Assembly (NCBI RefSeq): GCF_000422985.1
Contig: NZ_AUHC01000008.1
Coordinates: forward strand, 1 to 64,000
DNA length: 64,000 nucleotides
Direction: 5' to 3'
Origin: Erythrobacter cryptus DSM 12079
GTDB taxonomy: Bacteria > Pseudomonadota > Alphaproteobacteria > Sphingomonadales > Sphingomonadaceae
Under the pieces are notes generated by a model that made no database searches, was not told the origin of the DNA, and worked only from the letters and a program-made list of their open reading frames with translations. Position 1 is the stretch's first letter, and each line of letters opens with the position of its first letter. Of this stretch, positions 1,566 to 3,045 are shown in pieces. A program made the translations under genes and the position numbers.

Positions 1566-1581
1566 TGGCACGGCTCGTGCA
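1566..1581 (+). promoter_or_regulatory. Sigma-54 (RpoN) promoter of the micropeptide-pspC operon
   Basis: TGGCACG-GCTC-GTGCA matches the -24/-12 consensus TGGCACG-N4-TTGCA at all but one position and keeps the invariant GG-N10-GC spacing. The expected start is near 1592, giving a leader of about 50 nt before the first 37-codon gene. Sigma-54 control fits the phage-shock theme, since psp operons of enterobacteria use this sigma factor with PspF. Confidence 0.7.
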
Positions 1582-1643
1582 GAAGGTTGGGCATCCCCGG
1601 GATGGTCCCGGATCGGATCGAAAAGACCAAGGAGATGGCCACC

Positions 1644-1757
1644 ATGTTCGCCACCGAAACCACCGCCCGCCTGTCCGCCGCCGCCTTCGCCATCGTGCTC
1701 TCGGCGCTGTCCTTCGCCTACGCGATCATCCCCGCCACCCCCGCGCTGGTTGCCTGA
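1644..1757 (+). CDS. 37-residue single-span membrane peptide, first tandem copy
   Basis: A tiny protein whose middle (residues 10-31) is one hydrophobic helix, preceded by a short polar N-terminus with one Arg. AGGAG at 1630-1634 is well spaced for the ATG at 1644. An in-frame ATG at 1635 is too close to that site. It shares the pattern TARL-x-xAAFA-x-VL and the motif AYAIIPA-x-P with the next gene, so the two are paralogues from a tandem duplication. It lies in a sigma-54 operon ahead of pspC. No named family is recognised. A regulatory or structural role at the inner membrane, like PspB/PspD, is inference. Confidence 0.7.
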   Translation: MFATETTARLSAAAFAIVLSALSFAYAIIPATPALVA

Positions 1758-1792
1758 TGGCCCCGCGCACACAGCAACAGAAAGGAATGTCC

Positions 1793-1906
1793 ATGTTCGG
1801 CTCCGACAACACCGCCCGCCTCGCTTCGGCTGCTTTTGCCGTGGTCCTCACCATCGCCAGCCTTGCCTATGCCATCATCCCGGCCAGCCCCGGCATGATC
1901 GCCTGA
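1793..1906 (+). CDS. 37-residue single-span membrane peptide, second tandem copy
   Basis: Same length as the preceding gene and the same architecture: residues 7-17 (TARLASAAFAV) and AYAIIPASP near 26-34 align without gaps to copy one. AAAGGA at 1781-1786 suits the ATG at 1793; an in-frame ATG at 1787 is too near. The gap between the two genes is 35 bp and pspC follows 31 bp later, so one transcript is likely. Conservation of the AYAIIPA motif between copies argues that both are translated and under selection. Function unknown. Confidence 0.7.
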   Translation: MFGSDNTARLASAAFAVVLTIASLAYAIIPASPGMIA

Positions 1907-1937
1907 CCACAACGCTCGCACAGGAGACTGAAGGACC

Positions 1938-2153
1938 ATGAACGACATCGTCGGCAACACCCCCGGCAAGCCGCCCCGCGGCAGCTTCCGCCTCGACAAG
2001 GGCAAGGCCAAGGTGTTCGGGGTGTGCGCCGGGATCGGCAATTATTTCGGCATCGACCCGATGCTGGTGCGGATCGGCTTTGTCGCCGCCACGCTGCTCG
2101 GCTTCGGCAGCCCGGTGCTGATCTACCTTGCGATCGCCTTGATCGCCGATTGA
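1938..2153 (+). CDS. pspC: PspC-domain membrane protein
   Basis: A 71-residue protein that is essentially one PspC domain: a basic stretch (FRLDKGKAKVFGVCAGIGNY), the conserved FGIDPMLVRIGFV, then a C-terminal hydrophobic helix. In enterobacteria PspC is an inner-membrane partner of PspA/PspB that senses envelope stress. Here neither pspA nor pspB is in the window, and the partners are the two 37-residue peptides upstream. AAGGA precedes the ATG at 1938. The E. coli protein is longer (about 119 residues), so only the core domain is present. A terminator follows at 2218. Confidence 0.85.
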   Translation: MNDIVGNTPGKPPRGSFRLDKGKAKVFGVCAGIGNYFGIDPMLVRIGFVAATLLGFGSPVLIYLAIALIAD

Positions 2154-2262: not shown

Positions 2263-3045
2263 TCACATCGCCGAAATGCCGCCGTCGATCTTGAGTTCGG
2301 CCCCGGTGACGAAGCGGCTTTCATCGCTGGCGAGATAGACCACCGCCTGGGCGATGTCATTGGGCTCACCCACAAAGCCAAGCGGGATCTGCCGCGCCAG
2401 CTTGTCCATCAGCACATCCTTGTCGAGCGCATGGGCGCGCGCCGTGCCATCGAGGATCGGGGTATCGACAAAGGTGGGGTGGATCGAATTGCAGCGGATG
2501 TTCATGCGCTTCTTGGCGCAGTGCAGCGCGATCGACTTCGAGAGCATCCACATCGCCGCCTTGCTGGCATTGTAGGCAGGCATGGTGTCGCTGGCGATCA
2601 GCCCGGCGATCGAGGAGATGTTGATGATCGATCCCGGCGCGTGTTCGCGCATCAGCGGCAGGGCCTTCTGGCAGCCGTGGAAGATCGAATTGACGTTGAT
2701 GTCAAAGCAGCGCTGCCAATCGGCAAAGGTGCAGGTCTCGATATTGCCGGGAACCCCGATCCCGGCATTGTTGACGAGCACGTTAAGACCGCCGAGCTTG
2801 TCGCGCGCGGCATCGATGGCGGCTTCCCATTGCTCGGGGCTGGTCACATCATGGGCGAGGGCAAAGGCGGTGCCATCGCCGAGTTCGGCATTGATCATGG
2901 CCGCGGTTTCCTCGGCCCCGGCGGCGTTGATGTCAGTGGCCAGCACCCGCGCGCCCTCGCGCGCGAGCGCCAGGCAATGCGCCCGTCCCAAACCCTGCGC
3001 CGCGCCCGTCACCAGCGCCAGCTTGCCCGATACCCTTCCCGTCAT
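2263..3045 (-). CDS. SDR-family NAD(P)-dependent oxidoreductase
   Basis: A 260-residue classical short-chain dehydrogenase. It has the cofactor motif TGAAQGLG (residues 13-20), an acidic residue after strand 2 (ATDIN) that favours NAD over NADP, NNAG near 92, and the catalytic Ser...YNASK pair near 145-162. The C-terminus GGISAM is typical. The substrate cannot be told from sequence; relatives are annotated as cyclohexanol, 3-oxoacyl or glucose dehydrogenases. Its ATG overlaps the stop of the upstream Nudix gene (3042-3045), so the two are translationally coupled. Confidence 0.9.
   Translation of the reverse strand: MTGRVSGKLALVTGAAQGLGRAHCLALAREGARVLATDINAAGAEETAAMINAELGDGTAFALAHDVTSPEQWEAAIDAARDKLGGLNVLVNNAGIGVPGNIETCTFADWQRCFDINVNSIFHGCQKALPLMREHAPGSIINISSIAGLIASDTMPAYNASKAAMWMLSKSIALHCAKKRMNIRCNSIHPTFVDTPILDGTARAHALDKDVLMDKLARQIPLGFVGEPNDIAQAVVYLASDESRFVTGAELKIDGGISAM

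Follow-up and report, generated by a model that had tools for sequence, protein, structure and literature searches.

What does a sigma-54 promoter control in Erythrobacter cryptus DSM 12079 when it leads into two tiny open reading frames and a gene with a PspC domain, with neither pspA nor pspB beside them? The original prediction, made on a 64,000-nucleotide stretch of the genome (the window), read this locus as an operon for two tandem membrane peptides and PspC, and proposed that the peptides may be new partners of PspC in envelope-stress sensing. Erythrobacter and its relatives carry here a second, previously undescribed operon for very small membrane proteins, between one and three in number, along with a shortened PspC in most cases. 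It appears to be switched on by PspF, the regulator of the phage-shock response to membrane damage, and would extend a well-studied bacterial stress response by new components.

Layout of the operon

All elements of the operon lie on the forward strand. The -24/-12 promoter, the consensus sequence TGGCACGGCTCGTGCA at 1566-1581, keeps the GG-N10-GC that marks sigma-54 promoters, and its position is kept in relatives as well. Among the 30 loci first read, the first ATG lies 77-84 bp downstream of the promoter in 28, the exceptions being L021, where the contig end cuts the locus, and L028, whose first peptide has ATA instead of AYA. A few bases 3' of the predicted transcription start, the 5'-UTR contains the stem-loop CCGGGA-TGG-TCCCGG (1597-1611). 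A leader stem-loop near the predicted 5' end of the mRNA recurs across 95 related leaders despite their very different sequences, and single-sequence folds of these leaders are more stable than shuffles (mean z -1.95); RNAalifold on a MAFFT alignment gave no consensus structure for the 5'-UTR.

Each of the two peptide genes, MFATETTARLSAAAFAIVLSALSFAYAIIPATPALVA for peptide 1 (37 aa, 1644-1757) and MFGSDNTARLASAAFAVVLTIASLAYAIIPASPGMIA for peptide 2 (37 aa, 1793-1906), has its own ribosome-binding site, AAGGAG at 1629-1634 and AAAGGA at 1781-1786, respectively. We collected 99 distinct operons, each with one to three such peptides. Their spacing is regular and they are provided with ribosome-binding sites: peptide 1 follows a GGA-type site in 98 operons, and among the 90 that have a second peptide, 86 have a site before it. 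The last gene, at 1938-2153, encodes a PspC-type protein of 71 aa, hereafter mini-PspC, the start of which overlaps the stop of peptide 2 (ATGA) in several genera. As for the terminator that had been proposed behind it, a GC-rich hairpin is indeed present at 2217-2236 (GAGGGGCC-GCAA-GGCCCCTC followed by TTGTGTGT), but its 8-bp GC stem is followed by a weak T tract and a terminator scan did not call it, making it a possible weak terminator.

The operon is flanked on one side by a minus-strand gene that we take to be recF (313-1401), and on the other by a convergent minus-strand gene, presumably for a short-chain dehydrogenase (2263-3045). Of the 94 peptide operons for which the sequence extends far enough, 71 have an opposite-strand NNAG (SDR-like) motif within 1.8 kb downstream, which suggests that the operon has been inherited vertically at a fixed place. 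At the very start of the window, directly downstream of recF, we noticed by eye the C-terminal part of a transposase-like ORF (20-316).

The micropeptides are genuine genes

Peptide matches were found in 57 of the 61 genomes of the same genus, mostly in tandem, and both the motif and the start codons are conserved in relatives. This conservation is far beyond chance. In our named collection the hosts are Erythrobacter/Porphyrobacter and Qipengyuania, and some genomes have as many as six copies, spread over two or three sites. Of the four genus genomes that gave no match, three are incomplete (70-82%) and one is 99% complete; given the latter, the peptides are dispensable. Variability in the peptide genes is highest at third codon positions and dN/dS amounts to 0.25-0.29. 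The peptides are therefore under purifying selection at the protein level and are genuine genes.

While the two peptides resemble each other, as originally predicted, they are not recent copies: identity is 0.78 within each peptide position versus 0.54 between peptides 1 and 2 of one operon, and the nearest neighbour shares the peptide position in 73 of 74 cases. By these comparisons, they are two distinct ancient paralogues. That the peptides fall outside known families was borne out for Pfam and NCBIfam, in which neither window peptide matches any model, and the Pfam models of the known small Psp families PspB, PspD and PspG match none of 37 members of the peptide family. The one weak match in the PDB, subunit H of complex I at E 0.05, was dismissed as chance.

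Each peptide opens with a short polar stretch whose net charge is close to zero; an Ala-rich helix of 20 residues comes next, then a neutral tail. AlphaFold2 predicts a single helix over residues 2-28 and places a break at residues 29-32 (mean pLDDT 84), and the N-terminus of peptide 1 is predicted to lie inside. The helix terminates in the motif A-x-A-I-[IV]-P-[AG]-[ST]-P. Counting back from this motif, residues -16, -12 and -8 are nearly all A/S, S/A and S/T, in a set of sequences that are related and were chosen in part by the motif. A small-xxx-small spacing is typical of packed membrane helices, and the small-residue face hints at helix packing, although this is suggestive only. Among 152 first ORFs located at enhancer sites, 133 terminate in a hydrophobic residue followed by Ala.

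A PspF-type enhancer links the operon to the main psp locus

The original prediction overlooked an enhancer. A PspF-type upstream activating sequence, CCAATCCTTGGCAAAAAATCCCAA at 1468-1491, precedes the -24 element by 98 bp, a conserved distance, and the upstream regions of relatives have the pattern CCAA-N3-TTGG-N9-CCAA in common. In the 2.95-Mb genome, this pattern has exactly two matches: the one in the window, and one on contig 3, in the gap between pspF and pspA. As a control, the reversed pattern was searched, with no match in this genome. The 61 genomes of the genus contain 87 matches, of which 34 belong to peptide operons, 41 are of the pspA type by sequence and 12 lie elsewhere. When 30 enhancer loci were fetched, all 30 proved to be at pspA or at peptide operons, and in 29 the distance to the sigma-54 site is exactly 78 or 98 bp. 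When 298 genomes of the order were scanned for the enhancer together with a sigma-54 site, 137 had the combination, with only three matches in total for the reversed-pattern control. Across 150 sites among the matches listed, the spacing between enhancer and sigma-54 site peaks at 78 (57 sites), 88 (8 sites) and 98 bp (45 sites). These peaks are one helical turn apart; in other words, the spacing changes by whole turns of the DNA.

The remaining components of such a system are encoded in the genome. RpoN is present (Sigma54_DBD, E=3.9e-65), and the gene divergent from pspA encodes PspF, scoring 481 bits against TIGR02974, above the equivalog cut-off of 443.6. At this pspF locus, PspA, PspB and a full-length PspC each score above their own equivalog cut-off. 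The reported absence of pspA and pspB thus holds for the operon's own locus, but not for the genome, in which pspF-pspABC and rpoN are found elsewhere and the pspA promoter shares the enhancer. When the promoters of pspA and of the second operon are aligned on the -24 element, their CCAA and GAAA.tT.CCCAA blocks are equidistant from it. A similar TAGTGtAATTcgCtAA block can be matched by eye in the upstream region of E. coli pspA. Considering the shared enhancer, the same register, RpoN and the pspF-pspABC genes in the genome, a second PspF operon is the simplest reading. Membership of the operon in the PspF/sigma-54 regulon is strongly supported by these sequence features, and PspF itself probably binds the enhancer at 1468-1491.

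We also considered whether the operon depends on sigma-54 but answers to an enhancer-binding protein other than PspF. The genome encodes five other genuine sigma-54 activators, and the middles of the enhancers differ, with TTGG at the window operon versus TATAG in the -98 unit at pspA. Against this, the sole other copy of the enhancer in the genome sits between pspF and pspA, in the same register to the -24 element, and we regard control by another activator as improbable. Read this way, the DNA of an alphaproteobacterial family reveals a Psp regulon, with its enhancer motif, the helical phasing of this motif, and a second operon for new small membrane proteins and a truncated PspC.

Distribution across the order

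As judged from profiles and position, the peptide family, including diverged homologues, spans the Sphingomonadaceae. We read 20 diverged loci from other genera, 19 of which have an enhancer with at least 10 of 12 matches at 97-99 bp together with a sigma-54 site. One or two peptides of 35-45 aa come next in almost every one, L253 being a locus in which no peptide ORF was read, and most continue into a short PspC. In genera missed by the peptide profile, an enhancer at the same distance often leads into a short PspC preceded by one or two peptides of 41-48 aa, and in other genera the same-distance enhancer drives a peptide and pspA. A profile comparison of the window family (A2) with the peptides of the genera missed by the profile (A4) indicates that they are homologous (probability 96.4%, E 1e-9). 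Outside the order, no credible peptide match was found in 289 genomes of the class.

Mini-PspC and the likely role of the operon

For the third gene, the original call of pspC proved right as to the domain and too generous as to the protein. Pfam PspC (PF04024) matches the 71-aa ORF with 59.6 bits against a cut-off of 25 (E=2.5e-16), so that a PspC-domain gene does lie next to the peptides. TIGR02978, however, gives 51.6 bits versus a cut-off of 104, covering model positions 7-59 of 121, which places the protein below the full-length PspC equivalog. In an alignment with the genome's own 124-aa PspC, which is encoded elsewhere, mini-PspC stops at ...LIAD, and the whole C-terminal half is missing. 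In enterobacterial PspC, the C-terminus binds and recruits PspA upon stress (PMC6003685). By analogy, mini-PspC, having lost this PspA-binding half, cannot perform the canonical signalling step of recruiting PspA in the known manner. A natural PspC of this kind would separate the sensing and the membrane roles of PspC.

Taking these observations together, we think it rather probable that the locus is a second operon of the Psp regulon, making two non-redundant inner-membrane micropeptides and a mini-PspC that most likely serve as an output or modulator of the Psp response. Membrane stress would free PspF from PspA, and PspF at the enhancer (1468-1491) would loop onto sigma-54 RNA polymerase at the promoter (1566-1581), switching on the operon together with pspF-pspABC at its separate locus. 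The two single-helix micropeptides would enter the inner membrane with the N-terminus inside and the short, neutral, Pro-containing tail outside, to be joined there by mini-PspC, with its membrane domain kept and its PspA-recruiting half gone. The small-xxx-small-xxx-small face may let the helices pack against one another and against helices of the PspC type. In the membrane, the peptides and mini-PspC would act as output or modulator, in the direction of either protection or damping. Topology, packing and this effector or modulator role are inferred from sequence, as is the biochemical role that we propose for the peptides. The operon supplies candidate effectors through which the Psp response may affect the membrane other than by PspA. 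Since the operon lies downstream of PspF, output or modulation is more likely than sensing, and the envelope-stress sensing originally proposed finds no support. The suggested partnership with PspC fares better in that the association is real, but mini-PspC is missing from 26 of the 99 peptide operons, so the peptides are not strict partners of PspC.

The same features can be read differently. One such reading is that the peptides are exported pre-peptides, in which the N-terminal 27 residues form a Sec signal peptide, signal peptidase I cuts after A-x-A, and a periplasmic stretch of about 10 residues, I[IV]PASPxLxA, is the effector or signal. Alanines at -3 and -1 with a freely varying residue between them (Y/T/A/F/V/M) occur in the peptides of the Erythrobacter clade and also in diverged peptides picked by profile and position, although the A-x-A count is partly circular, as the ORF picker demanded A-x-A-I-x-P. 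The i, i+2 pattern is better suited to a protease site in extended form than to the face of a helix, and the first ORFs at some related sites (L336, L334) resemble a signal peptide with a tail. A weak Pfam match to PhrC_PhrF (PF11131) in 4 of the 37 members (best E 0.0054) points the same way but is not significant over 37 tests. The N-terminal net charge of about 0 and the small-xxx-small pattern kept inside the helix, which is unusual in signal peptides, speak against export, and A-x-A is absent from the homologous peptides of other genera. For this last reason, we prefer an uncleaved membrane helix, retaining cleavage as an unlikely rival. The further step, that the Psp response of Sphingomonadaceae releases the conserved peptide of about 10 residues into the periplasm as an effector or stress signal, seems to us quite unlikely; if true, it would be an arm never described for phage-shock systems.

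The truncation of mini-PspC, in turn, invites the idea of a feedback damper: PspF-induced mini-PspC and micropeptides would take up the PspB/PspC partners but, unable to recruit PspA, would shut the response down. The loss of precisely the half that binds PspA (PMC6003685) and the overlap of the mini-PspC start with the peptide 2 stop in several genera are consistent with this, but given the 26 peptide operons without mini-PspC, damping by mini-PspC cannot be the general role, and we consider damping possible, if doubtful. Those 26 operons, which carry peptides only, also weigh against the two ORFs being leader ORFs that tune PspC translation rather than functional peptides. Such leaders would explain why the ORFs are short, lie upstream of pspC and overlap its start in some genera; in view of the protein-level selection and the two distinct paralogues as well, we hold this explanation to be highly improbable.

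Comparison with known systems

YohP-type stress-induced small membrane proteins are not known to be controlled by PspF. They resemble the window peptides, for which a single helix and a stress link are predicted, in having fewer than 50 residues, one membrane helix and a link to stress (PMC12719787). The PspF regulon of E. coli consists of pspABCDE and pspG, with PspG an effector (PMC2763126, PMC9239133), and PspF control of psp genes is described only in Enterobacteriaceae, with pspG as the sole target outside the main operon (PMC9239133). E. coli pspG is the closest known arrangement, being a separate PspF/sigma-54 operon for a small inner-membrane Psp protein. The operon in the window differs in encoding, in its family, one to three peptides of about 37 aa without a Pfam match along with mini-PspC, and in belonging to Sphingomonadaceae rather than enterobacteria. 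Small proteins encoded with Psp genes are covered in comparative surveys (LiaI, PspM, PspN and PspD; PMC11237479, PMC9239133), and the window peptides are likewise small and encoded with a Psp gene. By a word search of these surveys, neither Sphingomonadaceae nor such micropeptides are mentioned.

Additional features of psp loci

The main psp locus holds small genes of its own. On contig 3 (L033, 8176-8359, minus strand), the sigma-54 promoter and pspA are separated by a small membrane ORF of 60 aa (MQHRNTTPGFW...VEIA), and counterparts of 50-61 aa, without a family match, occur in most relatives read. Homology of these pspA-upstream peptides (A3) to the 37-aa peptides was rejected (hhalign probabilities of 0.6% with A2 and 2% with A4); both end alike in a hydrophobic residue and Ala. 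Further small membrane or coiled-coil genes follow pspC (L033, 5145-6467, minus strand), some of which weakly match PspB or the PspC tail. In the pspF-pspA intergenic regions (L033, L130-L143), pspF may have a sigma-70 promoter (TTGCCA-N18-TATAGA in L130). This candidate overlaps the enhancer and is so near the ATG that the pspF mRNA may be leaderless; if this promoter is real, the overlap would imply autoregulation by PspF. In another genus of the family (g2), the place upstream of pspA that the 50-61-aa peptide takes in other genera is taken by a 161-aa exported protein, itself preceded by a sigma-54 site (L145). At two further loci of this genus (L339, L340), the spacing is 88 bp, and the PspF-type site drives an exported-looking protein of 83-86 aa, a possible further member of the regulon.
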